Numbered from the stretch's first letter, positions 6,075-22,730 are shown. The stretch: DNA of 64,000 bases from Thermococcus stetteri (GCF_017873335.1 NZ_JAGGKB010000002.1:310001-374000), one strand, 5' to 3'. Numbers and translations: made by a program. Notes: generated from the sequence alone by a model not told the origin.

Positions 6075-7043
6075 TCAGCCCCTGTAGAAGATGTCCAGGT
6101 TTGACGGGTCCTTTTCGAGGTAGCCCCCGAGGTAAGCGAGCTTCCACTCGGACTTTATCCCCCTTATGAGTTCGTCGTTGAGGCCCTCGTCGTTGATCTC
6201 TGTCCTGTCGTAGAGTATATCGAGGGTCTTGGCATCGAGGTGGTAGAGGTCTCCGAGTATCTTCTTCGTCTCATCGGCGTTCTCCTTCCAGAACTTCGCG
6301 CTCTCCTCCTGGGCCCTCACGAAGGCCTTCACGAGCTCTGGGTGCTCATCGGCGAAGTCCTTCCTGACGACCCACACGAGCATTACTGGGTCTCCTTCAA
6401 CGATGCCCCTCTCCTCAGCCTCATCCCAGAGGTCCTCGAAGGTCGCTATGACGCTCACGTTGCCGGCTATGAGCTCACTCACTATCGGCTCCCAGATGAC
6501 GACGGCGTCAACGTCCTTAAGCGAGTCCTTTATCGAGCCGGGCGGGACGTTGACAACTTCGTAGTCCTCTGGAGTTATGTTGTAGAGAACCTTCATGTAG
6601 GCCTGGAAGAGCTTGAAGGTTCCCGACGCGACAACGGCCCCTATCTTCTTGCCCCTGAGGTCTTCTGGCTTCATCTCCTCCTTCCCGAGTATCGCCTGGT
6701 TCTGCATCATGTCAACGGCCACTATCTCTATTCCTGCTCTGCCCTGGGCCAGCTTTGCCGCCATCTCGGCTGGAATGACGGCGAAGTCCGTCTCGCCCTT
6801 CGCGAGAGCCGCGATTATGTCCGGTGTCTTCCCGAGCCTGAGGGCCTGAACCTTAAACCTGTTCTCCCTGTCGAAGCCCTTGGCCTCCATGATGTCGAGG
6901 GTGCTTATCCCACCCATGAGAGTAGCTGCCTTCACTGTGGGAAGCTCGGTTGTCGTGCTCGTTGATGCCTTCTCGTTCGAGCCTATGCACCCGGCAGTAA
7001 GGGCAATCATTCCCACAAGCAGCAGGGCGAGCCACTTCCTCAT
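6075..7043 (-). CDS. NMT1/SsuA-like ABC substrate-binding lipoprotein
   Basis: A 322-residue exported binding protein. It has an N-terminal signal peptide with a lipobox-like LTAGC at about residues 16-20, a Ser/Thr-rich linker, and then a type II periplasmic-binding fold (AATLMGGISTLDIMEAKG; TDFAVIPAEMAAKLAQG; DLRGKKIGAVVASGTFKLF; VDAVVIWEPIVSELI). This family binds sulfonates, nitrate, thiamine precursors or aromatic carboxylates. The gene begins immediately after the UbiA gene, and the importer genes plus UbiE follow. That placement suggests, as inference only, uptake of a precursor for the UbiD/UbiA/UbiE pathway, for example an aromatic acid. Confidence 0.88.
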   Translation of the reverse strand: MRKWLALLLVGMIALTAGCIGSNEKASTSTTTELPTVKAATLMGGISTLDIMEAKGFDRENRFKVQALRLGKTPDIIAALAKGETDFAVIPAEMAAKLAQGRAGIEIVAVDMMQNQAILGKEEMKPEDLRGKKIGAVVASGTFKLFQAYMKVLYNITPEDYEVVNVPPGSIKDSLKDVDAVVIWEPIVSELIAGNVSVIATFEDLWDEAEERGIVEGDPVMLVWVVRKDFADEHPELVKAFVRAQEESAKFWKENADETKKILGDLYHLDAKTLDILYDRTEINDEGLNDELIRGIKSEWKLAYLGGYLEKDPSNLDIFYRG

Positions 7044-7952
7044 TCAACCACCTCCGTAGAGCCTTATCAGGACGTCAGCTATGGCTGAGAGCGTGAGGAT
7101 CAGGCCTATTGGAATGTTGAGGTTGAACGCCTTTGGCACGTTCTCAAGGCCTCTCCAGACGATTAGGTTCTCGTAGAGAATGAGTGCGCTCCCGACCAGC
7201 CAGCCGATTAGGTAAACCCACCCGAGGCCGTAGAGCGGAAGGGCTAAACCAAAGAAGGCTATGGCAGTGAGGTGGAAGAGGAGCGCTATCTTCAGCGCCT
7301 TATTTATCCCAAACCTCGCTGGGATGCTCCCGACTCCGTGCTTAACGTCGAACTCATAGTCCATTATCGCGTAAATTGTGTCGAATCCAGCGACCCAGAA
7401 GAGGACGCCGAAGAAGAATGCCCAGGGAACTTTTTCGAGGAGAACCAGCAGGTTGGCTTCGTCTCCGCCAGCGGCTATCGTTCCGCCCGCAACGGCTAGG
7501 GCAAGGGTTAAACCAAGGTGAAGATGCGGAAAGCTGTGCTTCTTCTTCGCCCCAGAGTAGGTCATAGCTATTACCCAAGGAATCGGGCTTAGAACGGCAG
7601 TCCAGAAGTTGAGGAGAACCGCCGAGACGAAGTAGAGGCTCGAACCAACCACGACCAACCACCAGGCGTCGCTTACACTGACCAGGCCTTTAATCAGCGG
7701 CCTGTTCCAAGTCCTCCGGTTCTGGCTGTCTATGTCGAGGTCGGCGATGTTGTTGTAGGCCATAGCGGCCGTCCTGAGGCCGAGAAGGGCCAGGCTCATC
7801 CAGATTATCTCCCAGAGGGTAACCTTAAAGCCGCTCAGGAAGGCACCGACGTAGGCATAGGGCAGGCTGAAGAGGGTGTGCTCTATCCTGACCAGCCTCA
7901 TGAGGGCGTGAAACCTACTGGCTTTGCTGACCTGCCCCGGGTCGAAGGCCAT
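7044..7952 (-). CDS. ubiA: UbiA-family aromatic prenyltransferase (4-hydroxybenzoate polyprenyltransferase-like)
   Basis: Membrane prenyltransferase of 302 residues that attaches a polyprenyl chain to an aromatic acid. Both Asp-rich motifs are present: NNIADLDID followed by RRTWNRPLIKG, and DTIYAIMDYEFD followed by GVGSIPARFG. The second is typical of UbiA/MqnP rather than MenA or digeranylgeranylglyceryl-phosphate synthase. ATG 7950-7952 is chosen because GGTGAG precedes it; it begins one base after the UbiD stop. About eight or nine membrane helices are apparent. With UbiD, UbiE and the polyprenyl synthase at 21.8 kb this gives a nearly complete late quinone pathway. Confidence 0.88.
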   Translation of the reverse strand: MAFDPGQVSKASRFHALMRLVRIEHTLFSLPYAYVGAFLSGFKVTLWEIIWMSLALLGLRTAAMAYNNIADLDIDSQNRRTWNRPLIKGLVSVSDAWWLVVVGSSLYFVSAVLLNFWTAVLSPIPWVIAMTYSGAKKKHSFPHLHLGLTLALAVAGGTIAAGGDEANLLVLLEKVPWAFFFGVLFWVAGFDTIYAIMDYEFDVKHGVGSIPARFGINKALKIALLFHLTAIAFFGLALPLYGLGWVYLIGWLVGSALILYENLIVWRGLENVPKAFNLNIPIGLILTLSAIADVLIRLYGGG

Positions 7953-7953
7953 C

Positions 7954-9399
7954 TCACTCACCGAGGTACTTTTTGAAGAGCCCTTCAAGCCTCTTGAGCA
8001 CCTCTGGGTCTTCCTCAACTTCCTCAACGACCCTCCCACCCATCTCCTCAGGAAGCTTTCTAGTGGCGTCAATCCCGAGCTTGCTCCCGAGCGGCGGGTT
8101 TGGAACGGCCGGATCGAGGGCGTCTGTGTGCGCGTTTGGAATAACTAAAACGTCCCTCTGCGGGTCGACGAAAGAGGCTATGGCCCAGATAACCTGGTTG
8201 ATGTCGTGCGGGTTGATATCCTCGCTTACCACAACGATAACCTTCGTGAGCGCGGCCTGTCCGGTTCCCCAGAGGGCATTCAAGACTTTCTTTCCATGCC
8301 CGGGATAGCGCTTCTTTATCGAGACTATCGCGACCCCCTGGAAGACTCCGTACTCAGGAAAGTTCACGTCAACGACCTCTGGGAGAACCATCCTCATCAT
8401 GGGAAGGAAGACCCTCTCGATGGCCTTTCCAATGACTGCATCCTCCAGCGGCGGTTTTCCGACAACGGAGCCGTAGTATATCGGGTCGTCGCGGTAATAA
8501 ACTCTCTCAGCGTGGAAAACCGGATAGAGCTCGTTCCTCTCGGCTGGTTTGTCGTAGAAGCCGAAGTGGTCTCCGAAGGGCCCCTCCTCGTGGAGTTCGT
8601 TCACATCCACGTAGCCCTCTATCACAGCTTCCGCGTTGGCCGGAACCAAAACACCGTTCGGCAGGCGGTAGAGTTCAAGGCCTTTCCCACGGACGAAGCC
8701 GGCGAAGAGGAGGCTGTCGAGAGGATAGGGAACCGGAGAGACCGCCGTTAGGAGAGTTCCTATGTCAGAGCCGATGGCTATCGCAACCGGCATCTTCCCG
8801 CCGTTTCTCTCAAGGTAGTCCCGCCACGCCTGGCTTCCGCGCTTGTGAATTTGCCAGTGGATAACAGCCCTCTCGCCGTCGAGGAGCATGACCCTGTAAA
8901 CGCTTATCGAGTTCACTCCCTTTGGATCGGAGAAGCAGACGAGAGGGTAAGTTAGGTACCTGCCAGCGTCCTTAGGCCAGGTCTTAAAGGCCGGAATGAA
9001 GTCGAAAGGGTTATCCTCGACAACGTTCTTCGTGAAATCTGCCCTTCTCACGACCTTTGGGAGATAAGCGCTCATCTCCTTCAGCCTTCCGAGGGAAGAG
9101 AGCTTGTCAGAGAGGCCGAGCGGAAGGCCCTCGAAGAGCTTTAGAGGTCTCTCCCCTATCTCCTCAAGCCTCTCAACTCCGAGGGCTTTCCTCAGCGTTT
9201 CGACGCCCGTGAAGAGGTTTCCGGCCACCTTCCACTCGGGATAACCCTTAACTCTCTCGAAGAGAACGGCACCGGCTTTGGAGTACATAGCCTTCCTCAG
9301 AAAGGCCGGTATCTCAAGCTCTGGCGACAGCTCCTCGTCTACCCTTATCAGCTCTCCCCGCCTCTCAAGCCAGTCGAGGTATTCACGCATGTCCTTCAT
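7954..9399 (-). CDS. ubiD: UbiD-family decarboxylase
   Basis: A 481-residue UbiD-type (de)carboxylase, an enzyme class that uses prenylated FMN. Recognisable features are the N-terminal MREYLDWLERRGELIRV, AIGSDIGTLLTAVSPVPYPLDSLLFAG, the conserved EGPFGDHFGFYDKPAERN segment with catalytic-region acidic residues, and VDVNFPEYGVFQGVAIVSI. In ubiquinone or futalosine-menaquinone synthesis it removes the ring carboxylate after prenylation, and UbiA follows directly. No UbiX flavin prenyltransferase is visible in the window, so prFMN would have to come from a gene elsewhere. It starts three bases after the ABC ATPase stop. Confidence 0.92.
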   Translation of the reverse strand: MKDMREYLDWLERRGELIRVDEELSPELEIPAFLRKAMYSKAGAVLFERVKGYPEWKVAGNLFTGVETLRKALGVERLEEIGERPLKLFEGLPLGLSDKLSSLGRLKEMSAYLPKVVRRADFTKNVVEDNPFDFIPAFKTWPKDAGRYLTYPLVCFSDPKGVNSISVYRVMLLDGERAVIHWQIHKRGSQAWRDYLERNGGKMPVAIAIGSDIGTLLTAVSPVPYPLDSLLFAGFVRGKGLELYRLPNGVLVPANAEAVIEGYVDVNELHEEGPFGDHFGFYDKPAERNELYPVFHAERVYYRDDPIYYGSVVGKPPLEDAVIGKAIERVFLPMMRMVLPEVVDVNFPEYGVFQGVAIVSIKKRYPGHGKKVLNALWGTGQAALTKVIVVVSEDINPHDINQVIWAIASFVDPQRDVLVIPNAHTDALDPAVPNPPLGSKLGIDATRKLPEEMGGRVVEEVEEDPEVLKRLEGLFKKYLGE

Positions 9400-9402
9400 C
9401 GC

Positions 9403-10167
9403 TCAGACCTCCACCTTCGGCCTTAAAACCCTTTCACCGCCGCACTCAATCAGCTTGAGCTCCACCCCGTAGGCCTTGCTGAGGAGCTTCTCGTCTATGA
9501 CCTCCTCGGGCTTCCCTTCGGCGATTATCCTTCCATCTTTCATCAGCACGACCCTGTCCGCGAAAAGTCCGGCGAGGTTTGGGTCGTGGAGAACCACTAA
9601 CGAGCCAACACCCTCTTTTGTGAGCTTCTTCACCGTTTGAAGAACTAAAAGGGCATTTCTGAGGTCGAGGTTGCTAGTCGGTTCGTCGAGGAGAAGGTAT
9701 TTTGGAGAGGTCATCAGTGCCCTCGCAATGAGTAGCAATCTGATCTGGCCGCCGCTCAGCGAAGTGTAGGGCTTTTCCGAGTATTTCTCAAGGCCGAAGA
9801 GCCTCAAAAGCTCCATCGCCTTCTCTTTATACCTCTTACTCGGAGCACCAAAGGGCCCGAGTTCAGGAGTTGAACCTAAGAGAACGAAGTCGAGGGCCTT
9901 GAATGGGAATGTTGGAACGTGGTTCTGAGGGACGAAGCCGATAACCTTCGCCCTCTCACCGGGAGAAAGCTCCGAGATGTTTTTTCCATCAACTTCGACC
10001 TTCCCCTTCTCCGGCTTCAGTATTCCGAAGAGGAGCTTAAGAAGGGTGCTCTTTCCTGTGCCGTTCGGGCCGATTATCGCAACTAACTCACCCCTATTGA
10101 GGGAGAGGTTGACGTTTTCAACTGCGAAATCTCCGTAGGAGAAGTAAAGGCTTTCAGCCCTCAGCAT
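9403..10167 (-). CDS. Iron-siderophore/cobalamin/heme-type ABC transporter ATPase (FecE/BtuD)
   Basis: ATP-binding subunit of 254 residues with Walker A GPNGTGKST, Q-loop GFVPQNHVP, signature LSGGQIRLLLIARAL, Walker B KYLLLDEPTSNLD and the switch His in LVVLHDPNLAGLFADRVV. The AGLFADRVVLMKDGRIIAEG sequence is typical of the FecE/BtuD class. It overlaps the flavodoxin gene at its start and is followed at once by UbiD. Its permease is at 10.8-11.7 kb, with binding proteins at 11.7-13.7 kb. Heme, a porphyrin, cobalamin or an iron chelate are candidate cargos; the adjacent heme enzyme favours a tetrapyrrole or iron. Confidence 0.9.
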   Translation of the reverse strand: MLRAESLYFSYGDFAVENVNLSLNRGELVAIIGPNGTGKSTLLKLLFGILKPEKGKVEVDGKNISELSPGERAKVIGFVPQNHVPTFPFKALDFVLLGSTPELGPFGAPSKRYKEKAMELLRLFGLEKYSEKPYTSLSGGQIRLLLIARALMTSPKYLLLDEPTSNLDLRNALLVLQTVKKLTKEGVGSLVVLHDPNLAGLFADRVVLMKDGRIIAEGKPEEVIDEKLLSKAYGVELKLIECGGERVLRPKVEV

Positions 10168-10777
10168 TTCTCTCCAGCTCCCTTATTTTCTCCATGAAGT
10201 CGAAGTCCTTAACCTTCTCCAGCTCGCCCCTCCTGAAGTGCTTCCCGAACCAGTCGTAGTAGAGGAGCGTCCTCCTGACGAAGGCTCTAACGTCCTCCTC
10301 TCTGTAAAGGCTCTTCTTTTCGAGCCTCTCTCCAAGCGCTAGGTAAAACCTCTCCATTTTTCTCCTATCCCCTTCGCTGAGCTTTTCAGGTTCGACCTCT
10401 CCCCCTATCAGCGTCCCGTAGAAGGGCGGAACCTCGAAGGCCTCTATCAAGGGCTGTGAGTAGGCTATCCCTCCGTGTAGTCTGCCCATGAAGACTGAAC
10501 CAGCGAGATGCATAGCAACGAGGAAGAAGGCCTTTGGAACCTCTTCGAGCCTCTCTCTGTGTTTCTCAACCCATTCCATAAGGTTCCAGTGCGGGCCGTC
10601 ACGGTAGACCGGAGCGGCCATTATCACGAGGTCGTAGCCCTCTGGAACCGGGTCGTCCTCTACTCTTTTCACATCAACTTTGTGTCCCCTCTCCTCCAGC
10701 AGGGAAGCGGTAAGCTTTACGGCCTTTTCAGTTGATGCATATCTTGTCGTGTAGACTATCAAAACCCTCACTCCCAT
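10154..10777 (-). CDS. Flavodoxin-domain protein, HemG-like
   Basis: A 207-residue flavodoxin-fold protein. The N-terminal FMN phosphate loop VLIVYTTRYASTEKAVKLTASLLEERG is clear, followed by YDLVIMAAPVYRDGPHW and FFLVAMHLAGS. The layout resembles menaquinone-dependent protoporphyrinogen oxidase HemG, with a C-terminal helical extension (LLYYDWFGKHF). It is embedded in the transporter operon, overlapping both the permease and the ATPase genes. A role in porphyrin oxidation or in reducing imported iron or heme is plausible from context. HemG identity is not proven, since generic flavodoxins share these motifs. Confidence 0.75.
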   Translation of the reverse strand: MGVRVLIVYTTRYASTEKAVKLTASLLEERGHKVDVKRVEDDPVPEGYDLVIMAAPVYRDGPHWNLMEWVEKHRERLEEVPKAFFLVAMHLAGSVFMGRLHGGIAYSQPLIEAFEVPPFYGTLIGGEVEPEKLSEGDRRKMERFYLALGERLEKKSLYREEDVRAFVRRTLLYYDWFGKHFRRGELEKVKDFDFMEKIRELERNAEG

Positions 10778-11709
10778 CCACCCCCGGTTTTTCTGAGGAG
10801 ATAAGCGAAGAACGGAACGCCGACGACAGTGGTTATTATCCCCACCGGAATGTCTCCTGGAAGGAGTCTTACAATAACATCGGCCAGAACCATAACCGTT
10901 ATTCCCATTGAAATCGTAGCTGGAATGAGTTTCGAATGCTCAGGGCCGACGAGCATTCTGGCAGTGTGCGGGACGATTAAACCGACCCACCCGATTATCC
11001 CGGTGAAAGAGATAACCAGAACAGTCAGCAGGGCAGAGAGGAAGACGAAGATGCCCCTCCACAGTGGGACGTTCACCCCGAGGAGTTCCGCCTCATCCCC
11101 GAGGCTCATGACGTTCAATCTAAACCTGAGCAGGTAAAGGAATATCGTGAGGATGACAACCCCCGGAAGGGAATAGGCAACTTTTTCCCACGTGGCGTTG
11201 GAGAGGCTCCCCATGAGCCAGACAACTAAAGCCGAGAGGCTCTCGCTTGGCAGTAGGAGCTCAAGAAGAGCTAACAGGGCTGAAAAAAGCGAGGTGACTA
11301 TTATACCTGCCAGAACCAGCGAGACCGTTGAGACCCTGCCGTTCACCCTCGCGAGGGAATAGGCTGTGAAGACGGCGAGAAGGCCAAAGACCAGCGCAAC
11401 CGGAGCTATTCCAGCCATCGGGAGAAACGAAACGGCCAGGGCCGCCCCGAGGGCAACTCCAGATGAGACGCCGAGAATGTAGGTGTCTACCAGTGGGTTC
11501 CGAAAAACCGCCTGGAGAACCATTCCGCCCAGACCGAGGGCCATTCCTGCTGAGATCCCCATCAGAGTCCTCGGAAGCCTGATGTTCCAGATAACCCTTT
11601 TTCCAAGCTGGTCAAGATTGAAGGGATTGGTTGGATAGCTCCCCACGAAGATCCCGAGAAAGACGGCAACCAGTGGAAAGACTAGCAAGAGGATAACGCC
11701 CTTTCTCAT
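10768..11709 (-). CDS. BtuC/FecCD-family ABC permease
   Basis: Membrane permease of 313 residues with about ten hydrophobic segments. Family landmarks are RLPRTLMGISAGMALGLGGMVLQAVFRNPLVDTYILGVSSGVALGAALAV near the N-terminus, GIIGWVGLIVPHTARMLVGPEHSKLIP and the C-terminal GDIPVGIITTVVGVPFFAYLLRK. These are diagnostic for importers of iron chelates, cobalamin and heme. It overlaps the following flavodoxin gene by ten bases and the preceding signal-less binding protein by four. This is the only FecCD permease in the window, yet two binding proteins feed it. Confidence 0.93.
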   Translation of the reverse strand: MRKGVILLLVFPLVAVFLGIFVGSYPTNPFNLDQLGKRVIWNIRLPRTLMGISAGMALGLGGMVLQAVFRNPLVDTYILGVSSGVALGAALAVSFLPMAGIAPVALVFGLLAVFTAYSLARVNGRVSTVSLVLAGIIVTSLFSALLALLELLLPSESLSALVVWLMGSLSNATWEKVAYSLPGVVILTIFLYLLRFRLNVMSLGDEAELLGVNVPLWRGIFVFLSALLTVLVISFTGIIGWVGLIVPHTARMLVGPEHSKLIPATISMGITVMVLADVIVRLLPGDIPVGIITTVVGVPFFAYLLRKTGGGWE

Positions 11710-12581
11710 CGCTCTACCCCGCAGAGCCTGTAGAGTTCCTTCGCCACAGATTCCCAGTCTGGATAGTAGTCGGGATAGATCACATTCCCGAGCTGGTATA
11801 TCCCTGGTATTATCCTTGGACTCCAGCGCATAAAGCTGTTTCTATCTATTGCCGAGCCGAGGATGTGAATTTCCCCAGTGTCAACGGCCTTCACCTTTCT
11901 CCACTCGCTTGAATCGAGCATCTCGTCCCTGATTTCTCTCAGCTTCTCCTCGCTCGTTAGGACGCTGGTGAGCAGGATGAGAACGTCAGCCTCACTAAAG
12001 CGCTTTACGAACTCTTCAAACGGGACTGGAACCACCTTCCGATGGGTCGGAAGTTTTCCCATATACTCCGCTCCAGTCTTCTCAACAGCATCGCTCAGGA
12101 CGTTGGTCTGCGTCACGACGTTTATCCCGCGGTAGAGCATCACAACCTTTCTCCTCTCTTCCAAGGCTTTGGCTATTCCTCTAATCCTCGCAAGGTGCTT
12201 CCTGTAGAATTCAAGGAGCTTTGAAGGGTCCCCGCCGACTAGGCTGGCGATCTCTTGAGTTATAGGAAAGAGGTCTTCAACCTTAATGATGTCGAAGAGT
12301 GCTAATTTTGCGTTGTGTCTCTCGGCGAAGGCCTTAAGCTCGTCTATGCTGTAGAGAGTGTCTATCTCGAAGTCCATTATGACTTCCGGCCTCAGCTCCT
12401 CAAGGACGTCCCAGTAAGTCAGCTTTTCCCTCTGGAGGTACTTTCCAACAACTGGCCTGTCCCTGAAATCTGGCAGGCAGTAGTCGAGCCTTATCTCCTC
12501 GTTGACGCCGACCACCTTGTCCCCTGCACCGGCCAGCTTTGCTATCTCCACGAGCGACGCTGGAAAAATCACCGCCCTCAA
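11706..12581 (-). CDS. Cytosolic-looking duplicate of the iron/heme-type binding protein
   Basis: A 291-residue periplasmic-binding-protein fold clearly paralogous to the next gene upstream (shared RAVI...LEIAKLAGAGDKVVGV, YMGKLPTHRK, FMRWSPRIIPG and VIYPDYYPDW motifs). It lacks the signal peptide, the lipobox and roughly the first 60 residues. The start is taken as TTG 12579-12581 with GGTGAG five bases upstream, so the short form looks deliberately translated. The transporter permease overlaps its 3' end. It could be an intracellular ligand carrier or a decaying duplicate; the intact, evenly conserved frame argues against simple decay. Confidence 0.8.
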   Translation of the reverse strand: MRAVIFPASLVEIAKLAGAGDKVVGVNEEIRLDYCLPDFRDRPVVGKYLQREKLTYWDVLEELRPEVIMDFEIDTLYSIDELKAFAERHNAKLALFDIIKVEDLFPITQEIASLVGGDPSKLLEFYRKHLARIRGIAKALEERRKVVMLYRGINVVTQTNVLSDAVEKTGAEYMGKLPTHRKVVPVPFEEFVKRFSEADVLILLTSVLTSEEKLREIRDEMLDSSEWRKVKAVDTGEIHILGSAIDRNSFMRWSPRIIPGIYQLGNVIYPDYYPDWESVAKELYRLCGVER

Positions 12582-12606: not shown

Positions 12607-13671
12607 TCAGGAGAGGCCGTAGAACCTCCTTATGAAATCGTCTGCCTTCTCCTTCCAGTCCGGGTAGTAGTCCGGGTAGATGGTCCTTCCGATGACCCAG
12701 ATTCCGACGGCCATACGCGGGCTCCAGCGTAGGAAGCTGTCCTTATCAAGCTCCGCTTTGAGGATGTAGACGTTGCCCTCGCTGACGGCCTTTATGCCCT
12801 TCCACGCTTCGTCGTTCAGCATCTCGTTCTTTATCGCTTCAACCTTGTCGTAGGGCGTCACCGTGCTCGTTAGGAGCATAACTACATCGGCGTCCTTGAA
12901 CTGGGTTATGAGTTTCTCCTTGTCGAGCGGGACTCTAACCGGGCTGTAGCCGTTGAAGGTGAAGTTGGCCATGTATTCCGCGCCGACCAGCCTAACAGCT
13001 TGGGCTATAACGTCGTTGCCGTTGACGACGTAGTACTTGCCCATTATTGGCTGTATTATGACGACTTTCTTCCTCTCGTTGGCCGGTATCTTCTTGGCGA
13101 TCTTCTTGACCTCGCTCACCTGGTCGTTGAAGTACTTCTCAAACTCACTCGCCTTCTCCTCCTTTCCGAAGACCTTTCCGAGCAGTTCCACGGCCTTCGG
13201 GATGTCATCGAGCTTGTCCTCGCGGAGCATTATAACTGGAATCCCGTAGCTCGCTGACTTGTTCAGGAACTCGTCAACGTCGTAGAACTTCTTGAGGTAT
13301 AGGTTGACCATAAGGTCTGGCTTCAGCGCTAAAACCTTCTCCCAGTCCTCTATCTTGAGCCTCTTTCCTACCACAGTCTTGTTCTTGAGCTTCTCCGAGA
13401 GGAGCGCATCGGCCTTGGCCTCGACCGGTATTCCAACGACCTGGTCTTCAGCACCCAACAGCTGAACTATCTCAAGGGCCGACGTCGAGAGTATCACTGC
13501 CCTCTGAACCGGAACCTTGACCGTAACGCTCCTTCCTGCGAAGTCCTTGACGGTTATCTCCTTTGGCGTTATTGATGTCTTTTCACCATTGCTCCCCGAG
13601 TTGCTCACACAGCCGGCCGCGAAGACCGAAAGGAGCAAAACCGCAACCAGGAGTATTCCAGCCTTCCTCAT
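12607..13671 (-). CDS. Iron/cobalamin/heme-type ABC substrate-binding lipoprotein
   Basis: Exported binding protein of 354 residues. ATG 13669-13671 (MRKAGILLV) follows GGTGGTGG. The signal peptide ends at a lipobox-like FAAGC, followed by a Ser/Asn-rich linker and the BtuF/FecB fold: ITVKDFAGRSVTVKVPVQRAVIL, EIVQLLGAEDQVVGI, VLALKPDLMVNLYLKKFYD and the C-terminal WSPRMAVGIWVIG. It sits between the radical SAM enzyme and the signal-less paralogue in one run. Cargo is inferred to be heme, a porphyrin or an iron chelate from neighbours only. Confidence 0.9.
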   Translation of the reverse strand: MRKAGILLVAVLLLSVFAAGCVSNSGSNGEKTSITPKEITVKDFAGRSVTVKVPVQRAVILSTSALEIVQLLGAEDQVVGIPVEAKADALLSEKLKNKTVVGKRLKIEDWEKVLALKPDLMVNLYLKKFYDVDEFLNKSASYGIPVIMLREDKLDDIPKAVELLGKVFGKEEKASEFEKYFNDQVSEVKKIAKKIPANERKKVVIIQPIMGKYYVVNGNDVIAQAVRLVGAEYMANFTFNGYSPVRVPLDKEKLITQFKDADVVMLLTSTVTPYDKVEAIKNEMLNDEAWKGIKAVSEGNVYILKAELDKDSFLRWSPRMAVGIWVIGRTIYPDYYPDWKEKADDFIRRFYGLS

Positions 13672-13681
13672 TTCCACCACC

Positions 13682-14887
13682 TCAAACCGGCTTTTCCTCC
13701 CCGAAGGTTCCGATTGGAAGAGTTATCCCGAGCTGAGAGGCGAGCTTGAGGTAAGTTCCAGGTTGATATGGACAGGCCGGGTCTTCGGCGAGCGGGTCAA
13801 CATAGTAGGCATAAGCCCTAGCTCTGCTTCCCCCGCAGACCTCCCTAAACTCGCAGACACCGCACCTTCCCTTGAACTCCGCCGAGCGGAGCTTCCTCAT
13901 GAGTTCGGAGTTCTGGTAGATTTCAACGAGGCTCTTCTCCCTCACGTTCCCCGCTGGATATGGCAGAAAGCCACTTGGATAGACATCTCCGCGGTAGGAG
14001 ATGAAGACTATGCCCTTGCCGTCCCTCGTTCCCATCGTCTGAGCCTTCGCCTCTCCGCCTTCTCCAAGGAGTTCGATGAGCCTCCTCTTGAGCCTGAAGT
14101 AGAGCTCTCCCGGCTTGAGAACCTCGTCCGGGTTTATCCCCTTCTCCTCGAGGGCCCTCCTCATTATGGCAACCCTTCTGAACATCGGGCCTTCGGTAGT
14201 TCTCACGAGAAGGTGCTTGGATGCCTCGTAGAGGAAGTGGGTAACGTCCTCCCACTCCTCCGGCTTCAGGTCGCTCTCAAAGCTCCCCCTTCCCGTTGGG
14301 ACGAGGTAGAAGACCTCCCAGATGTTCACGCCGAGCTCTTTGAGAAGCTTGGCCATCTCGGGGAGGCCCTCGACGGTCTCGCGCATGACGACGGTGTTAA
14401 CCTGGACACTCACGTCCCTCTTGAGGAACTCCTTTATGGCCCAGACAGTCCTCTCCCAAGTCCCCTCGATGCCCCTTATGGCATCGTGGACTTCCGAGAA
14501 CGGGCTGTCGAGGCTTATGCTTACCGCTTTGACACCGTGCTCGACTATCTCGTCTATCGTCTCCTCGGTGAGAAGAGGAGTAACCGCAGGAGCGAGACCC
14601 ACTCTGATGCCCTTCTCCACCGCATAGTCTATCAGCTCGAAGATGTCCTTCCTCATGAGCGGGTCGCCGCCTGTGAGGATGAGTATCGGGTAGGGCCTTC
14701 CAAAATCGGTGAGCGAGTCTATCAGCTTCTTCCCTTCATCGGTCGTCAGCTCGCCCGGAAGGGCCTGGAGTATGGCCTCGGCGCGGCAGTGCTTGCACTT
14801 GAGCTGGCAGGCCTTTGTGGTCTCCCAGAATACGAGGATGGGTTTCCTATCGTAGGGCCATGAGCCGTGAGATTTTCCTCGGTGCAT
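13682..14887 (-). CDS. Radical SAM/SPASM enzyme of the heme-synthesis (AhbC/AhbD/NirJ) type
   Basis: A 401-residue radical SAM protein. The [4Fe-4S] motif CQLKCKHC (CxxxCxxC) follows VFWETTKA, then LTGGDPLMRKDI and VSISLDSPFSEVHDAIRG. The SPASM end CGVCEFREVCGGSRARAYAYY...EDPACPYQP resembles AhbD and NirJ, with Ser instead of Cys after CGG. AhbD converts Fe-coproporphyrin III to heme b. ATG 14887 is selected with GGTGGTC upstream. It heads the minus-strand run that continues into the tetrapyrrole/iron importer and the quinone genes. Exact reaction is inferred; TIGR-level assignment needs an HMM search. Confidence 0.8.
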   Translation of the reverse strand: MHRGKSHGSWPYDRKPILVFWETTKACQLKCKHCRAEAILQALPGELTTDEGKKLIDSLTDFGRPYPILILTGGDPLMRKDIFELIDYAVEKGIRVGLAPAVTPLLTEETIDEIVEHGVKAVSISLDSPFSEVHDAIRGIEGTWERTVWAIKEFLKRDVSVQVNTVVMRETVEGLPEMAKLLKELGVNIWEVFYLVPTGRGSFESDLKPEEWEDVTHFLYEASKHLLVRTTEGPMFRRVAIMRRALEEKGINPDEVLKPGELYFRLKRRLIELLGEGGEAKAQTMGTRDGKGIVFISYRGDVYPSGFLPYPAGNVREKSLVEIYQNSELMRKLRSAEFKGRCGVCEFREVCGGSRARAYAYYVDPLAEDPACPYQPGTYLKLASQLGITLPIGTFGEEKPV

Positions 14888-14932
14888 TTCGACCACCGTC
14901 TCTTAGGTTACCAAAATGAACTTAGCGTGACC

Positions 14933-14946
14933 GAAATATAAACCTT
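14933..14946 (-). promoter_or_regulatory. Promoter of the heme/quinone operon
   Basis: On the minus strand GGTTTATATTTCGG (14946-14933) provides a TATA element about 50 bases upstream of the radical SAM start. It is the only clear promoter-like element before the twelve closely packed genes ending at 4053. No inverted repeat stands out beside it. Confidence 0.5.
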
Positions 14947-14996
14947 TCCCCCAGAAGTTCAAAATTCAAAGGTAAAGAAAAGGAAGGGAGTGGAGT

Positions 14997-15992
14997 TCAG
15001 TAGTAGCCTTCCGCTTCCGTGACCTTTCCGCCGAACATCTTGTAGACGTAGAGCGTGTAGGCCATGATGATCACTGCGAGGACTACTGAGACTCCGAGCA
15101 CTGCCTGGAGGGTCAGCGGCGAGGCGGCAAGGTCCTTGATGCTGAGCTTGAAGTTCGGGTCGGTGGTGGAGATGACCCAGTACGGATACATGCTGTAGTA
15201 GACGAGGAAGACCACCAGCGGGAAGGCCAGCCAGCTGATGTAGAAGCTGAGCTTCTCGTCGCCCTTCTTGATGAGGTAGCCGTCGAGCAGTCCTGCCACG
15301 AGGATTACCAGTGTCAGTCCAAGCCCGAGCGGTGTTAAAGCTCTCTCGAACCTCAGCGGGGCCCATATCTTCATGCCGACCACGACGAGGAGCAGGAAGA
15401 CCACAGTGAGAACCCAGAAGTTGAAGGTGTGCTTCCTCATCTGCTCCTGGAGCTTTCCGGTCGTCTTGTAGACCGCCCAGTTAGCCCCATGCCACATGAC
15501 TGCGAAGAGCACGAAGAGGCCGACTATCAGCGGGAACGGCCTGAAGAGAGTCAGTAGTGAACCGTGGAATCCGTTGGCATCTATCGGGATTCCCTGGATG
15601 AGGTTGCCGACGACGACGCCGAGGACGAGGGCTATCAGCGCGCTCACCGTGGCAAAGAGCTTGTCCCAGAGGGCCTTGTTTCTGTTCCTGAACTCGAAGC
15701 CGACAGCCCTGAATATCAGCAGGAAGGCAAGCAGCCAGATAGCGAGATAGAACGTGCTGAAGAGGACCGCGTAGAGGGCCGGCCACATGGCGAATATCCC
15801 TGCACCCCAAGTGATGAACCAGACCTCGTTGCCGTCCCAGACTGGAGCTATCGTGTTGATGAGCACGTCCCTGTCCTTCTGATCCTTGACGAAAAACAGC
15901 AGGCTTCCCAGTCCGAGGTCGAAGCCGTCAAACGCTAGATACATTCCAAGGAGGAAGGCTGAAAAGTAATACCAGGCGGTCGCGTAGTCCAT
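14997..15992 (-). CDS. cydB: Cytochrome bd oxidase subunit II
   Basis: CydB, 331 residues, the second membrane subunit of cytochrome bd quinol oxidase, which reduces O2 with quinol electrons. Motifs: YYFSAFLLGMYLAFDGFDLGLG near the N-terminus, VWDGNEVWFITWGAGIFAMWPALYA, and a final helix before VYKMFGGKVTEAEGYY. Eight to nine hydrophobic helices are apparent. Its ATG (15990-15992) overlaps the cydA stop, with GGAGGTGG upstream inside cydA. The bd oxidase is unexpected in Thermococcales. No cydCD-type exporter is in the window. Confidence 0.94.
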   Translation of the reverse strand: MDYATAWYYFSAFLLGMYLAFDGFDLGLGSLLFFVKDQKDRDVLINTIAPVWDGNEVWFITWGAGIFAMWPALYAVLFSTFYLAIWLLAFLLIFRAVGFEFRNRNKALWDKLFATVSALIALVLGVVVGNLIQGIPIDANGFHGSLLTLFRPFPLIVGLFVLFAVMWHGANWAVYKTTGKLQEQMRKHTFNFWVLTVVFLLLVVVGMKIWAPLRFERALTPLGLGLTLVILVAGLLDGYLIKKGDEKLSFYISWLAFPLVVFLVYYSMYPYWVISTTDPNFKLSIKDLAASPLTLQAVLGVSVVLAVIIMAYTLYVYKMFGGKVTEAEGYY

Positions 15993-17515
15993 CACTGACC
16001 ACCTCCCGCGGCGCTAACGGCTGGGACAGGCTTGGCGGTTACGTCACCCTCAACCGGCTCAGGTCCTTCTCTGACGAGCTTTTTGGCGAAGTGGAGCCAG
16101 ATGTAGAACAGTATGCTGTAAACCACGACGAAGCCGATGAGAGTTATTAGCACGCTGGTGGCCGTAACGTTCGGTGAGGCGCCGGTGTTGACCGTAACCA
16201 TTCCCCAGACCATCCAGGGCATCCTGCCTACCTCGTGGGTGAACCATCCGGAGAGACTGGCGAACCACGGAAGCGGCAGTGTGTAGACGAGCACCTTGAG
16301 GAACCATCTGGCATCGTAGAGCTTGCCGAGGAGCAGGAGAAGCACTCCAACGAGGCCTATCAGGATGAAGAGCGTTCCGAGGCCGATCATGACGCGGTAG
16401 GCGTAGAACATGAATGCAACCGGAATGCTCTCCTCAAGGACTTTGACCATCTTCTCGTTGGCGTTTGGATCGTTCGGGTCAACTCCGTGGGCCTTCATGA
16501 TCTGCTCAATGACGGCTTTCTTCACCTTCTCGTCGGCGAAGTTCGGGTTGTTGAGAACCTGCTGGTACCAGACGTATTCAGCAGCGTCGTGTAATCCAAG
16601 AACCTTCGCGTTCCAGTCGCCGAAGGAGAGCCAGCTCAGGAGCTTGGGGATCTTTATGGCTGCTTTGACCTCCTTGTTCTTCTCGTCAACTATACCGAAA
16701 ACTATCATTGGGGCACCGCTTTCGGTCTTGTAAAGGCCCTCATCCGCCGCGAGCTTGGTCGGCTGGTACTTTGCTATAACCTGGCCCTCCATGTGGCCCG
16801 TTGGGTAGAGCTGAACTATCGAGCTTATCGCGAGAACGACTATACCTATGGCGACGGCGCTCCTGGCCACCTGGACGTGTCTCCTCTTGAGGAGGTAGTA
16901 GGCACCTATGGCGGCAACGATGTAGGCACCGGTGATGATACCCGAGTTGACCGTGTGGGTGTATTCGCTGACGAGAAGCGGGTTGAAGACAGCACCCATG
17001 AAATCCTTGAGTTCGGCTCTGGGTCCAAGCGGAGTGCTGGCGATAATGTATCCGGATGGAGTCTGCTGCCAGCTGTTGGCTATGAGAATCCACAGAGCTG
17101 AAAGGCTTGAACCTATGAAGACGAAGAAAGATGATATCCAGCTGATGACCCTCGGAAGCCTGTCCATGCCGAAGAGCAGGACGCCGATGAACGTTGATTC
17201 CAGCGCGAAGGCGAAGAGGCCCTCGAGCATCAGCGGCGCTCCGAAGATTGAGCCTACGAAGATTGAGTAGTTGGACCAGTTGGCGCCGAACTCGAACTCC
17301 ATAACGATACCGGTTGGAACACCGATCACGAAGAACAGTCCGAGCCACTTGCTGAAGAACTTTGCCGCCTTATGCCACTGCTCCTCGTTGGTTATAGCTG
17401 CCATTGTCCAGAGCAGGAATACCATGAAGGCCGTTCCTATGCTCGCCGGCACAAACAACCAATGGTAACCGGCGGTAAGGGCAAACTGAATCCTCGACAG
17501 CAGTATTGGATCCAT
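15992..17515 (-). CDS. cydA: Cytochrome bd oxidase subunit I
   Basis: CydA, 507 residues, carries the hemes and the quinol site of the bd oxidase. Visible features: heme-ligand His18 in LTAGYHWLFVP, the acidic pair in MEFEFGANW and LEGLFAFALEST for the proton/heme region, WQQTPSGY, the GRMPW motif (variant of GRQPW) near residue 400, and about nine helices. The region between helices VI and VII is present but short, as in Q-loop-short enzymes. A separate TATA-like ATTATAAG lies upstream at about 17565-17572, so cydAB may be transcribed apart from the small gene before it. Function would require quinone and heme, both addressed by neighbouring genes. Confidence 0.95.
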   Translation of the reverse strand: MDPILLSRIQFALTAGYHWLFVPASIGTAFMVFLLWTMAAITNEEQWHKAAKFFSKWLGLFFVIGVPTGIVMEFEFGANWSNYSIFVGSIFGAPLMLEGLFAFALESTFIGVLLFGMDRLPRVISWISSFFVFIGSSLSALWILIANSWQQTPSGYIIASTPLGPRAELKDFMGAVFNPLLVSEYTHTVNSGIITGAYIVAAIGAYYLLKRRHVQVARSAVAIGIVVLAISSIVQLYPTGHMEGQVIAKYQPTKLAADEGLYKTESGAPMIVFGIVDEKNKEVKAAIKIPKLLSWLSFGDWNAKVLGLHDAAEYVWYQQVLNNPNFADEKVKKAVIEQIMKAHGVDPNDPNANEKMVKVLEESIPVAFMFYAYRVMIGLGTLFILIGLVGVLLLLLGKLYDARWFLKVLVYTLPLPWFASLSGWFTHEVGRMPWMVWGMVTVNTGASPNVTATSVLITLIGFVVVYSILFYIWLHFAKKLVREGPEPVEGDVTAKPVPAVSAAGGGQ

Positions 17516-17631
17516 TCCACGTCACCTCCGGGTTTATTCCTCAAACTATTGCTACCGAATTCAAAACTTATAATGTTTTCGGGCCTTCCATATGATATAC
17601 TCGACAGAAGACGAAAATAACGAAAAGGCAA

Positions 17632-17835
17632 CTAACTCTTCACCTTCGGCCTGTTGAAGAAGCCAACCCCGTGCGCTTCCGCAACCCACAGCAGGTATCC
17701 GACTGTAAAGAGCATCCCTACTATTATCCATACAACGTTGTGCAGCAGGAATGCTATCAATACGAACAGCAATGTCAACAGTATTGCAACCAGTCCTACC
17801 GCTATTTCCTTCCCGGTTTCAGCTTCAACTGCCAT
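17632..17835 (-). CDS. Small two-helix membrane protein upstream of cydA
   Basis: A 67-residue protein with an acidic N-terminus (MAVEAETGKE), two hydrophobic segments (about residues 11-31 and 33-52) joined by a short HN loop, and a basic C-terminal tail. It lies about 115 bases upstream of cydA on the same strand and divergent from the SQR operon. Single-helix accessory subunits (CydX, CydS) stabilise bd oxidases in bacteria. A two-helix protein in this place could be an archaeal equivalent, or an unrelated small membrane protein. No family recognised. Confidence 0.7.
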   Translation of the reverse strand: MAVEAETGKEIAVGLVAILLTLLFVLIAFLLHNVVWIIVGMLFTVGYLLWVAEAHGVGFFNRPKVKS

Positions 17836-17934
17836 GGTGCATCACTAAAGTATGGATATGAAACCAGTTCTTATATCCCTTTCGGTAGATGGAGTTTCCA
17901 AACAGAATAGGTGCGGGAATCGAAACCGTTAAAT

Positions 17935-17975
17935 ACCCTACGAAAGTTAAATCTTTTAGACACACTTAACTAGGA
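17935..17975 (+). promoter_or_regulatory. SQR-operon promoter region with inverted repeat
   Basis: AGTTAA (17945-17950) and TTAACT (17966-17971) form an inverted repeat with a 15-base spacer just before the GGAGGTG ribosome site of the SQR gene. GTTAAAT also occurs earlier at about 17928 as a direct repeat, with TATA-like TTAAATACC there. The arrangement is suggestive of an operator in a divergent promoter, but AT-rich DNA makes such repeats by chance. Confidence 0.35.
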
Positions 17976-17984
17976 GGTGTAGTT

Positions 17985-19133
17985 ATGGCGAAGGTTTTGA
18001 TACTCGGCGGTGGGACCGCCGGACTGGTCGCCGGAAGGTACATAACGGCCGAAGCTAGGAGGCTCGGCCTCGACGTGGATGTAACGATGGTCACGGCAAG
18101 TGAAAGGCACTACATGCCTCCCCTGTTCATGGAGGTGGCCCTCGGCTCTGCCGCCCCACACGAGACCTGGGCACCGATAAAAAACGCCGAAAAAATCTAC
18201 GGCTTCAAGGTTGATATAGACAGGGTCGTTGAGATAGACCTCGACAACAGGCAGGTGAAGACCGACGGGGGTAAGGTTTACGACTACGACTACCTGTTCC
18301 TCGGCCTCGGGGTCAAGTACGTCTGGGACAAGTACAAGGGGATGAACGAGTACGGCTACCACAACTACACCCTTGAGGGGGCAATGGAGCTCCACGAAAG
18401 GCTCAGCCAGTTCAAGGGAGGGAAAATAGTCATATATGCTCCCGAAAGCCCCCACACCTGTGGAATCTACCCCTACGAGATGAGCCTCAACCTCAGGATG
18501 TACTTCGAGCACAGGGGAATTGAGGACGTGGATATAACCATCGTCCACCCGAGCAAGGAACCGGGTATGGGTCTCGGCCCGGATCTCGTCAGGTTTTTCA
18601 AGAGGGAGATGGAGAAGGCGCGGGTCAAATTCATCCACAACGAGGGTCACGTTGAGATAACCCCGAACAAAGTCATCACCAAGAACGCGGAAGTTGATTA
18701 CGACCTCCTGATCAAGATCCCGCCGATAGCGATTCCCGATGTGATGTCCTTCATGGCCGACGACAAGGATCCAAGGTGGGCGAAGGTAAAGGGCCCCGAC
18801 TTCCGCTACCCCGGCTACGATGAGGTCTACGTCGTGAGCGAGGCTTCAATGCCGCCGCTTGGACTCCTCACAGCTGGAGTCCCGCTCCACAACGCGACCG
18901 TTGTAGCCGCAACCAGCATACTCCACCAGATACACGGGGGCTACCCGGTTGCCGAGTACGCACCCACCATGTGCGTAGGACACGGCTACAACACCGGCTT
19001 CTCGGGCAACTGCGAGTACAGGTGGAACGGAAGTAAGTACGAGAGAACCTGCTACCTGCTCTTCAAGAGCCCACTCGTGAGGCTGATGAAGGATTCCTTC
19101 TACAGGGGCTGGCTCGATAGCCTGAGGTTGTGA
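17985..19133 (+). CDS. sqr: Sulfide:quinone oxidoreductase-like flavoprotein
   Basis: An FAD-dependent oxidoreductase of 382 residues that would oxidise sulfide and pass electrons to quinone. The N-terminal dinucleotide site LGGGTAGLVAGRYI, YDYDYLFLGLGVKY, a Cys in SPHTCGIYPYE, and a C-terminal Cys-containing part (PTMCVGHGYN, GNCEY, ERTCYLL) fit the SQR fold. The C-terminal helix KSPLVRLMKDSFYRGWLDSL is the membrane-binding type. GGAGGTG precedes ATG 17985. DUF1641, which often accompanies SQR, follows directly. It would supply quinol to the divergent bd oxidase. Confidence 0.88.
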   Translation: MAKVLILGGGTAGLVAGRYITAEARRLGLDVDVTMVTASERHYMPPLFMEVALGSAAPHETWAPIKNAEKIYGFKVDIDRVVEIDLDNRQVKTDGGKVYDYDYLFLGLGVKYVWDKYKGMNEYGYHNYTLEGAMELHERLSQFKGGKIVIYAPESPHTCGIYPYEMSLNLRMYFEHRGIEDVDITIVHPSKEPGMGLGPDLVRFFKREMEKARVKFIHNEGHVEITPNKVITKNAEVDYDLLIKIPPIAIPDVMSFMADDKDPRWAKVKGPDFRYPGYDEVYVVSEASMPPLGLLTAGVPLHNATVVAATSILHQIHGGYPVAEYAPTMCVGHGYNTGFSGNCEYRWNGSKYERTCYLLFKSPLVRLMKDSFYRGWLDSLRL

Positions 19134-19143
19134 GGTGGTGAAG

Positions 19144-19563
19144 ATGAGCGAACTCAATTTTACTCCTGAAGAAATAGCTGCTGTTAAGGAGCTCGCGGAG
19201 GTCGCCCTCGCCCTCAAGAGAGGGGGCTACCTCGGCCTCATCAAAGCCATGACCGAGAACGGGGACAAGTTCCTTGATACCATATCGGAGGAGAAGATTT
19301 TGAGGCTCCTCGGGGTGGGAAACGCCGCCCTTGAACCGGTGAGGGAGCTCGAAACCTCCGAAGTTATGGAGATAGAGTGGAACACCGAAGAGCTCGTCAG
19401 TGCACTCCTGAAGGCCCTGGCAAAGACCAACCCGAAGGAGGTTCCAAAGGTCGGGATGATGGCGGCCCTTGGCTACCTCCGCGACGAGGACGTCCAGAAG
19501 GGGCTCGGCTTCCTTCTGACCCTGGCAAAGAACCTCGGAGCCGCGATGAACGGCAAGCTCTGA
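19144..19563 (+). CDS. DUF1641 protein
   Basis: A small soluble helical protein of 139 residues. ATG 19144 is chosen because GAGGTGG lies directly upstream, ten bases after the SQR stop. DUF1641 proteins commonly sit beside sulfide:quinone oxidoreductases or heterodisulfide-reductase-like genes and have the pattern seen here (LLGVGNAALEPVRELE; GMMAALGYLRDEDVQKGLGFLLTLAKNLG). The molecular role is unknown; an SQR partner or assembly factor is inferred. Confidence 0.82.
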   Translation: MSELNFTPEEIAAVKELAEVALALKRGGYLGLIKAMTENGDKFLDTISEEKILRLLGVGNAALEPVRELETSEVMEIEWNTEELVSALLKALAKTNPKEVPKVGMMAALGYLRDEDVQKGLGFLLTLAKNLGAAMNGKL

Positions 19564-19591
19564 CCTTTTCCTTCTTTATGGAGGTGAAGTC

Positions 19592-20479
19592 GTGAGGGTT
19601 CTCTTCACATACATGGGCGCGCCGACGACCCCCAATGAAATAGAAGACTTCATCTTCCGCTTCCTTTACGATGTCAGGCACCACATAGGCCTTAATGTCC
19701 CCGGTGCTAAGGCCATAATCAAAGGCATAGCAAAGGCCAGGGCGAGGCAGGTTAAGCCGCATTACGATGCGATAGGCGGTAGAAGCCCCCTCGTTGACTA
19801 CATGCGCGAGATAGTCAAAATGGTGAGCGCGAGAACCGGCCACGAGATAGAACTCGGTATGTGCTACTCAAGGCCACTCCTTGAGGAACTCGAAGGACCT
19901 TTCGACCTTGTCTTTCCAATGTACCACGTCTATTCAAGCTCAACCACCGAGCGCTGTCTCGTCAAAATCCGCGAGCTCTTTGGGGATGTCCGCTACGTGA
20001 GGGAATGGTACCAAAACGGGAAGTTCGTTGAGTGGGTCAGAGAGAACATACGGGTCGGTCTCAGGGAGAGCGGCTTTGAGAACCCCTACGTTATCCTCAG
20101 TCTCCACAGCCTTCCGAAGAGGGTCATAGACGAGGGGGACCCCTACCTCAAGAGCCACCAGAGGCTTGCAAAAACCGTTATGGAGGCCTTTGACCTTCCC
20201 TGGGAGATGGCCTTCCAGAGCAAGTTCGGTAAAGGCGACTGGCTCGGCCCGGAGGTCCCAGAAGTCCTGAAGAGGCTGAAGGAAGAGGGAGTTGAGGAGG
20301 TTTTAGTTTACCCTCTCAGCTTCATTGTTGAGAACGTCGAGACCCTCTACGAGCTGGATATTGAGTATAAGGAGATCGCCGATGAGCTTGGCCTCAGGTA
20401 TTACCGTGCCAGGTTAAATCACCGTAACCCCCTGCTCATCGAAGCGATATCGGAGGTGATTGAGAATGCATCCGGTTAA
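19592..20479 (+). CDS. hemH: Ferrochelatase (protoporphyrin or coproporphyrin)
   Basis: A 295-residue ferrochelatase that inserts Fe2+ into a porphyrin. It begins with GTG 19592 after GGAGGTG. Landmarks are FTYMGAPTTPNEIEDFIFRFL, GGRSPLVDYM, the catalytic His in LSLHSLPKRVIDEGDPY, FQSKFGKGDWLGPEV and the acidic YPLSFIVENVETLYELDIEY. Combined with the AhbD-like radical SAM enzyme, it fits a coproporphyrin route: insertion of iron, then decarboxylation to heme b. No early tetrapyrrole genes (hemA, L, B, C, D) occur in the window, so the porphyrin would be imported or made elsewhere. Confidence 0.92.
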   Translation: MRVLFTYMGAPTTPNEIEDFIFRFLYDVRHHIGLNVPGAKAIIKGIAKARARQVKPHYDAIGGRSPLVDYMREIVKMVSARTGHEIELGMCYSRPLLEELEGPFDLVFPMYHVYSSSTTERCLVKIRELFGDVRYVREWYQNGKFVEWVRENIRVGLRESGFENPYVILSLHSLPKRVIDEGDPYLKSHQRLAKTVMEAFDLPWEMAFQSKFGKGDWLGPEVPEVLKRLKEEGVEEVLVYPLSFIVENVETLYELDIEYKEIADELGLRYYRARLNHRNPLLIEAISEVIENASG

Positions 20480-21809: not shown

Positions 21810-22730
21810 ATGGAGTCCCTTGATGCAAAGATGCTCGAACTCCTTGAGGGGAGCGTTGAGCTCGCCCAGAAGGTGGGCGAGTACGTCATAAGGAGCGGCG
21901 GGAAGAGAATAAGGCCGAGAATAGCGATGGCCGTCTCAAGGGGTTTAAACCTCGATGAGAGGGATGCCCTCGACCTGGCCGCTTCGATAGAGCTCATCCA
22001 CACTGCCAGCTTAATCCACGACGACATAATAGACCTGGCCGAGAAGAGGAGAAACAATCCCACGGTTGTGATGCGCTGGGGGCCGGAGCTTGCCGTTCTG
22101 AGCGGTGACTTCCTCTTCATAAGGGCCCTCCGCGTCATAGCCTCAAAAAAGCTTGAGATGGTCGACTACGTTGCCAAGGTCGTTGAGGACATGGTGAAGG
22201 CCGAGATACTGCAGGAGGCCGTGAGGGGCACTGTCCACCTCGACGTCGAGACCTACTACAGGATTATCGATGGAAAGACTGGCCGGCTGTTTGGGGCGGC
22301 CTTCACCCTCCCAGCTTACTACCTCGGAAAGCCCTTCTGGAGGGAACTCGACAGGGCCGGGACGCTCGTGGGGAGGGCCTTCCAGATAGTGGACGACGTT
22401 TTGGACTACTTCCCTGGAACGGGAAAGGATCGCTTCAAGGACCTCCTTAACGGAAAGACCACGCTCCCGCTCATCCTCTACACGGAAAGGTACGGCTCTT
22501 CCCTCGTTGAGAAGGCCCTTAGAGAGCCCAGTGAAGAGAATTCCCTTGAGCTGTTTGAGAGAATGAGCAGGGCCGGCGTTTTCAGAGAGGCTGTTGACAT
22601 AGCCAGGGGCTTTGTGAACGAGGCCCTTAAAGCAATCTCCACCCTTCCAATTGACTCAAAACCCGTCGTCGATCTCGTATCGGAATACTTTGACAGGGTA
22701 TTCGCGAAGTTTGAAAACCTCTCGCCTTAG
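21810..22730 (+). CDS. Trans-polyprenyl diphosphate synthase
   Basis: Chain-elongating prenyltransferase of 306 residues. Both Asp-rich motifs are present: LIHDDIIDLAEKRRNNP (first) and FQIVDDVLDYFP (second), with GGKRIRPRIAM and GKTTLPLILYTE. In Thermococcales a bifunctional GGPP/FPP synthase normally serves lipid synthesis. A second copy ending an SQR-heme operon more likely makes the side chain for the UbiA product. Product length cannot be judged reliably by eye. Last gene of the plus-strand run; an independent promoter precedes the Mrp genes. Confidence 0.88.
   Translation: MESLDAKMLELLEGSVELAQKVGEYVIRSGGKRIRPRIAMAVSRGLNLDERDALDLAASIELIHTASLIHDDIIDLAEKRRNNPTVVMRWGPELAVLSGDFLFIRALRVIASKKLEMVDYVAKVVEDMVKAEILQEAVRGTVHLDVETYYRIIDGKTGRLFGAAFTLPAYYLGKPFWRELDRAGTLVGRAFQIVDDVLDYFPGTGKDRFKDLLNGKTTLPLILYTERYGSSLVEKALREPSEENSLELFERMSRAGVFREAVDIARGFVNEALKAISTLPIDSKPVVDLVSEYFDRVFAKFENLSP

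Follow-up and report, generated by a model that had tools for sequence, protein, structure and literature searches.

The heme auxotroph Lactococcus lactis, which carries hemH and cydA, loads iron into supplied protoporphyrin IX by means of the ferrochelatase HemH and in this way supports CydA-dependent growth, while its hemH mutant can use heme but not protoporphyrin IX (PMC4696147). Other endings of heme synthesis are the anaerobic route of Escherichia coli, in which HemN, a quinone-linked flavodoxin-type HemG and a protoporphyrin-type HemH take part, and the siroheme-dependent pathway, in which the radical S-adenosylmethionine (SAM) enzyme AhbD decarboxylates Fe-coproporphyrin III (PMC3942049). 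The Thermococcales are regarded as heme-free anaerobes: a survey from 2010 assigned them no tetrapyrrole genes and reported archaeal hemE and hemH from the Thermoplasmatales only, though Thermococcus gammatolerans was tabulated (PMC3004389). The cydAB genes of that species, which lie beside ubiquinone-like genes, were reported as horizontally acquired and O2-protective in a paper that is silent on hemH and whose text does not contain the word heme (PMC2718504). Yet about one third of the sampled species possess a ferrochelatase, whose occurrence goes together with that of cytochrome bd. Here we analyze this combination in a stretch of 64,000 nucleotides from Thermococcus stetteri (the window; NZ_JAGGKB010000002.1, 310001-374000), where cytochrome bd genes stand among those for HemH, an AhbD-type radical SAM enzyme, an importer and a HemG-like flavodoxin, and we conclude that the cluster very probably serves to salvage a late tetrapyrrole for cytochrome bd. 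As in L. lactis, a partial heme pathway would be fed by porphyrin from outside; unlike L. lactis, whose HemH has the short lip, Thermococcus is an archaeon with a long-lip HemH, and its cluster additionally holds a FecBCDE-type importer, an AhbD-type enzyme and the HemG-like flavodoxin. The flavodoxin and the type of HemH recall the E. coli route, but HemN and all upstream genes are missing and an AhbD-type enzyme is present instead. The literature searched contained no description of archaeal salvage that involves both an importer and an AhbD-type enzyme.

The source genome (2.03 Mb, 100% complete) and its relatives in the genus lack the beginning of the pathway. HemB was found in none of 37 Thermococcus genomes, HemA, HemC and HemE in none of 61 each, and no HemN_C match rose above the cut-off in the same 61, the source genome being included in these counts and the controls of the searches giving the expected results. 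An earlier note on this DNA, which proposed that heme is made from a salvaged porphyrin, had pointed out that early tetrapyrrole genes are absent from the window; for HemA, HemB and HemC this absence extends to the whole genome. The note had also named the presence of a complete pathway in the genome as a finding that would speak against salvage. Such a pathway was sought and not found, with none of HemA, HemB, HemC, HemE and HemN detected and with HemD, HemL, ChdC, SUMT and AhbA/B/C not searched genome-wide. On this gene content, de novo tetrapyrrole synthesis is predicted to be impossible in these cells.

Heme is nevertheless likely to be needed, because cydAB (14997-17515) lie within the very span to which the note had assigned the salvage genes (13682-20479); neither they nor a gene for an SQR-like oxidoreductase in the same span had been mentioned. 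All three heme ligands of CydA are kept (H18, H187 and M376, equivalent to H19, H186 and M393 in E. coli), as are E99, E107, K252, E257, R391, W441, E445 and R448 (E. coli numbering). Moreover, CydA occurs in 18 of the 61 genomes and HemH in 19, and every CydA-positive genome is HemH-positive: both are present in 18, HemH alone in one, CydA alone in none and neither in 42 (Fisher value 1e-14, which ignores shared ancestry). In the genome that has HemH alone, completeness is 88% and hemH sits on a 3.3-kb contig. Since the CydA ligands are intact, the early pathway is missing and HemH is kept, it appears that heme is required, that the start of its synthesis is missing and that the last enzymes are retained. 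Four lines of evidence thus give salvage good support: the genus lacks a de novo pathway, the CydA ligands are intact, HemH and CydA occur together, and the cluster contains a FecCD importer over and above the FecCD systems that occur genus-wide.

The type of ferrochelatase bears on the order of the final steps. HemH matches PF00762 (E=8e-64) and clears the TIGR00109 cut-off (186 bits against 125), and its catalytic residues H172 and E250 correspond to H263 and E343 of the human enzyme. Its lip comprises 53 residues, compared with 50-58 in protoporphyrin-type PpfC and 37 in coproporphyrin-type CpfC, and with the lip columns removed it still grouped with the human and proteobacterial enzymes (support 99/98). 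Placement within the coproporphyrin clade was rejected by the approximately unbiased (AU) test (p=0.002). At four active-site positions it has M8, R50, Y92 and Y111, as the human enzyme has M76, R115, Y165 and Y191, whereas the coproporphyrin type has Y, M/A, H and A. The predicted structure (predicted local distance difference test score, pLDDT, 95) found its best match in human ferrochelatase (Z 35.4, versus 33.4 for the best CpfC). Phylogeny, active-site residues, lip and structural model therefore all assign the Thermococcus HemH to the protoporphyrin type; a CpfC identity was considered and rejected, the short lip and the residues of the Bacillus subtilis type both being absent. A divergent chelatase-like family (f3, L024-L030) was also encountered, with weak PF00762 matches of 33-45 bits, frames of about 400 amino acids and a long hydrophobic N-terminus; its host genomes do have HemB.

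A second line of evidence comes from T. gammatolerans, which offers a natural with/without comparison for separating two possible salvage routes. This species has the same published cluster of cydAB, UbiD, UbiA and UbiE genes and keeps hemH, but between UbiD and CydB it has no importer, no flavodoxin and no radical SAM gene above the family cut-off; the three are missing as a single block, and only two FecCD copies are present. Between T. gammatolerans and a genome that has the block (G093), the ratio of non-synonymous to synonymous substitution was 0.09 for HemH and 0.10 for CydA, which indicates purifying selection. Because HemH is kept under such selection without the block, it appears to be of use even where the radical SAM enzyme is absent, in agreement with a direct role in converting protoporphyrin to heme. 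Two further genomes (G094 and G095) also had no detected radical SAM gene, and in G095 FecC lies on another contig; here the absence is probably an assembly effect of contig breaks.

These results divide the proposal of the earlier note, namely import of coproporphyrin or another porphyrin followed by iron insertion and decarboxylation; with coproporphyrin III as the import, HemH inserting iron and the radical SAM enzyme acting last, this would be a coproporphyrin-dependent pathway in which AhbD replaces ChdC. Its core, porphyrin salvage, is borne out by the lines of evidence given above, while its order of steps is improbable in Thermococcus, where HemH departs from the coproporphyrin type in phylogeny, residues, lip and closest structural match and where T. 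gammatolerans has HemH without the radical SAM enzyme. Such an order may exist in other organisms, since outside Thermococcus genes of the same radical SAM family (TIGR04053) adjoin coproporphyrin-type HemH, for example in Dormibacterota, where the ferrochelatase beside TIGR04053 on one contig is of that type, and in Chloroflexi.

The radical SAM protein clears the TIGR04053 cut-off (530 bits against 395) and lies below that of the AhbD equivalog model TIGR04545 (308 bits against 500), and homologues from Haloferax, Halobaculum and Thermus likewise fail the latter and pass the former. Naming by the NCBIfam model was therefore set aside in favor of the published motif signature and gene neighborhoods, and because TIGR04545 failed we call the protein AhbD-type rather than AhbD in the NCBIfam sense. 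The signature of the AhbD subgroup with auxiliary cluster II (AuxII) only consists of CX3CX2C, a C-terminal CX2CX5CX20-38C, and a Glu and two Ser (and in A. pernix a Thr) that replace the AuxI cysteines (PMC10452713). Across 44 homologues, C30, C34 and C37 of the radical SAM motif and C345, C348, C354 and C375 of AuxII are invariant, and the positions of methanogen AhbD cysteines are occupied by E235 (43 of 44), T290 (35), S308 (29) and S357 (all 44), with a Thr/Ser spacing that fits the SPASM motif. In its motifs the enzyme thus matches the AhbD subgroup with a single auxiliary cluster that is known from non-methanogenic archaea, and it differs from AhbD of the siroheme-dependent pathway in standing without any early tetrapyrrole gene.

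Homologues of the enzyme are found in heme gene neighborhoods. In the tree it joins proteins of Acidilobaceae and Pyrodictiaceae, its closest relatives (58-65% identity); two of these (L087 and L088) adjoin AhbAB genes, and an AhbC/NirJ-type gene lies near L088 and near another homologue, L086. Among 115 neighbors of homologues elsewhere, the leading families were ferrochelatase (7), HemE (5), HemY-type amine oxidase (4), radical SAM proteins (4) and HemL-type class-III aminotransferase (3), together with AhbC-type proteins, and ChdC and siroheme decarboxylase occurred twice each; the HemY and HemL labels were inferred from Pfam families. HemB was present in all 22 of the other carrier genomes tested, which makes Thermococcus the exception. 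In Haloferax volcanii, deletion of HVO_2144 (ahbD) impaired anaerobic growth, and protoheme restored growth fully in dimethyl sulfoxide (DMSO) respiration and partly in denitrification (PMC5746218). HVO_2144 has nirK, norB and halocyanin genes in its vicinity, and the gene of Haloferax larsenii in the same setting belongs to TIGR04053 (502 bits); from this synteny, rather than from its own sequence, we infer that HVO_2144 is a member too. A gene of this family would then be required for anaerobic heme supply in Haloferax, although there the upstream pathway is present and the role is in denitrification and DMSO respiration, not in salvage for cytochrome bd. At a Halobaculum locus (L083, 5757-7279), TIGR04053 and denitrification genes are accompanied by a candidate ribosomally synthesized and post-translationally modified peptide and by a TIGR04347 pseudo-radical-SAM protein.

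With HemH assigned to the protoporphyrin type, the steps could also run in the reverse order. In that case the radical SAM enzyme would take the place of HemN and decarboxylate imported coproporphyrin(ogen) III, after which the flavodoxin would oxidize protoporphyrinogen IX with a quinone as acceptor and HemH would insert iron last. Each enzyme would have a place in such a chain, HemN is indeed absent, the flavodoxin can be aligned with E. coli HemG over its length, and quinone genes lie within the same gene run. However, the substrate of AhbD is Fe-coproporphyrin III (PMC3942049), and the nearest relatives stand in siroheme-route neighborhoods, so that this order presupposes a change of substrate in the radical SAM enzyme; in addition, the flavodoxin falls below the cut-off of the model for HemG, a menaquinone-dependent protoporphyrinogen dehydrogenase (NF008316, 33.9 bits against 142). 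We therefore regard the reversed order as unlikely. A comparison of the flavodoxin sequence with the PDB gave no useful match.

The importer components named in the earlier note, like the ferrochelatase, the AhbD-like enzyme and the flavodoxin, were all confirmed by profile searches; the ferrochelatase and the radical SAM gene lie within the span it gave, whereas the importer and flavodoxin genes (9403-13680) lie outside it. The first substrate-binding protein (SBP1) is a lipoprotein with a signal peptide and lipobox. The second (SBP2) is 34% identical to it; in all 11 loci read it lacks a signal peptide, the protein starting directly with the first domain strand, and it is possibly a cytoplasmic tetrapyrrole carrier. 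The genomic context suggests a late porphyrin as the ligand of the importer. If the importer took up intact heme for direct delivery to CydAB, the role left for HemH and the radical SAM enzyme would be only to make more kinds of porphyrin usable, unless they are relics. Among NCBIfam models SBP1 comes nearest to the heme-binding protein IsdE, albeit far under the cut-off (68 bits against 299), but the presence of HemH in 18 of 18 CydA genomes and its purifying selection show that it is no relic, and this explanation seems very unlikely. Alternatively, the importer might serve iron, a siderophore or a corrinoid, its tie to the heme genes being a matter of operon history only. FecCD systems are common in the genus, and the fold matches of SBP1 span siderophore-, molybdate-, B12- and heme-binding proteins; against this, T. 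gammatolerans lacks the importer together with the radical SAM enzyme and the flavodoxin as one block, and the FecCD of the cluster is not among the copies shared by hemH-less genomes, so that we give this explanation little weight.

For the detailed route, the model we favor, at roughly even odds, is one of two parallel salvage entries that both feed cytochrome bd, protoporphyrin IX through HemH and coproheme through the AhbD-type enzyme; it is the best detailed model because no enzyme must change its substrate. The lipoprotein SBP1, the FecCD permease and the ATPase would import a late porphyrin shed by other microbes, and the signal-less SBP2 may carry it inside the cell. Protoporphyrin IX would receive its iron from HemH, and should protoporphyrinogen arrive instead, the HemG-like flavodoxin would oxidize it first; the AhbD-type enzyme would decarboxylate Fe-coproporphyrin III (coproheme), so that heme b could be reached by either of two routes. 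The heme product would pass to CydAB, quinone would come from the neighboring UbiA, UbiD, UbiE and polyprenyl synthase genes, and the oxidase would remove O2. If the oxidase does depend on scavenged porphyrin, oxygen tolerance at vents relies on heme-making neighbors.

Several points weigh against two parallel entries. Every genome with an AhbD-type gene also has HemH, so that a single chain is possible, and T. gammatolerans may have lost the block only recently and be about to lose its heme supply altogether. The importer might also transport heme, a siderophore or a corrinoid, between which the fold of SBP1 (AlphaFold model, pLDDT 85) does not discriminate: heme (IsdE), B12 (BtuF) and siderophore or iron-chelate binding proteins match it at Z 22-30, and molybdate binding proteins match as well. 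AuxII-only AhbD enzymes lack biochemical study (PMC10452713), and the activities of both enzymes, their action in parallel, the ligand of the importer and the roles of SBP2 and the flavodoxin are all read from genes. The cluster does offer a thermostable AhbD-type enzyme of this subgroup, which has so far not been assayed.

The gene order suggests a further dependence (Table 1). Transcribed from the minus strand are, in order, cydA, cydB, the radical SAM gene, SBP1, SBP2, FecC, the flavodoxin, FecE, UbiD, UbiA, an NMT1-type transporter and UbiE, with intergenic gaps of no more than 25 bases and a single exception of 100. In the opposite direction from cydA run the SQR-like gene, DUF1641, hemH, two genes of unknown function that are kept among cluster carriers (48-88% identity), and the polyprenyl synthase gene. 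Within the reach of their contigs, 18 other genomes show the same synteny, T. gammatolerans excepted. MqnA and MqnD were found in none of the 61 genomes (MenD and UbiC were not searched), and given this absence and the NMT1-type transporter between UbiA and UbiE, salvage may extend to the quinone head group. A complete O2-reducing chain would then be built from cofactors that the cells cannot make, namely porphyrin, handled by the importer, HemH, the AhbD-type enzyme and the SBP carrier, and perhaps the quinone head group. We offer this wider reading tentatively; if both were salvaged, the oxygen defense would be wholly dependent on cross-feeding.

Table 1. Genes of the cytochrome bd and probable heme salvage cluster and its surroundings, in coordinates of the window.
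Feature	Coordinates	Strand	Evidence
UbiE/MenG-family methyltransferase (quinone synthesis)	4053..4829	-	
NMT1/SsuA-type ABC transporter (ATPase, permease, lipoprotein SBP), within quinone genes	4726..7043	-	
UbiA-family prenyltransferase (quinone synthesis)	7044..8072	-	
UbiD-family decarboxylase (quinone synthesis)	7954..9399	-	
FecE/BtuD-type importer ATPase	9403..10167	-	
HemG-like flavodoxin; candidate porphyrinogen oxidase or radical SAM electron donor	10154..10777	-	Flavodoxin_5, E=1e-13
FecCD-type importer permease	10768..11709	-	
SBP2, paralogue of SBP1 without signal peptide; possible cytoplasmic porphyrin carrier	11706..12581	-	Peripla_BP_2
SBP1, importer substrate-binding lipoprotein, FecB/BtuF/IsdE fold	12607..13680	-	Peripla_BP_2, signal peptide and lipobox
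Radical SAM/SPASM enzyme, TIGR04053 family, AhbD-type, AuxII-only subgroup	13682..14896	-	Motifs, NCBIfam
CydB, cytochrome bd subunit II	14997..15995	-	
CydA, cytochrome bd subunit I, heme consumer	15992..17515	-	Ligands H18, H187, M376 conserved
SQR-like FAD oxidoreductase, first gene of ferrochelatase operon	17985..19133	+	
DUF1641 protein, between SQR-like gene and hemH	19135..19563	+	
Ferrochelatase HemH, predicted protoporphyrin type	19592..20479	+	Pfam, NCBIfam, tree, residues, model
Two genes of unknown function, interval from hemH to polyprenyl synthase	20460-21809	+	
Polyprenyl diphosphate synthase (quinone tail), hemH operon	21810..22730	+	

Elsewhere in the window, an acetyl-CoA synthetase frame on the plus strand (32422-34362) has one in-frame stop near 33100, which may reflect a pseudogene, recoding or a sequencing error. 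Also on the plus strand, at 41279-42568, a flavodiiron-type protein (flavorubredoxin-like in NCBIfam, under the cut-off) is encoded, another possible O2 or NO reductase.

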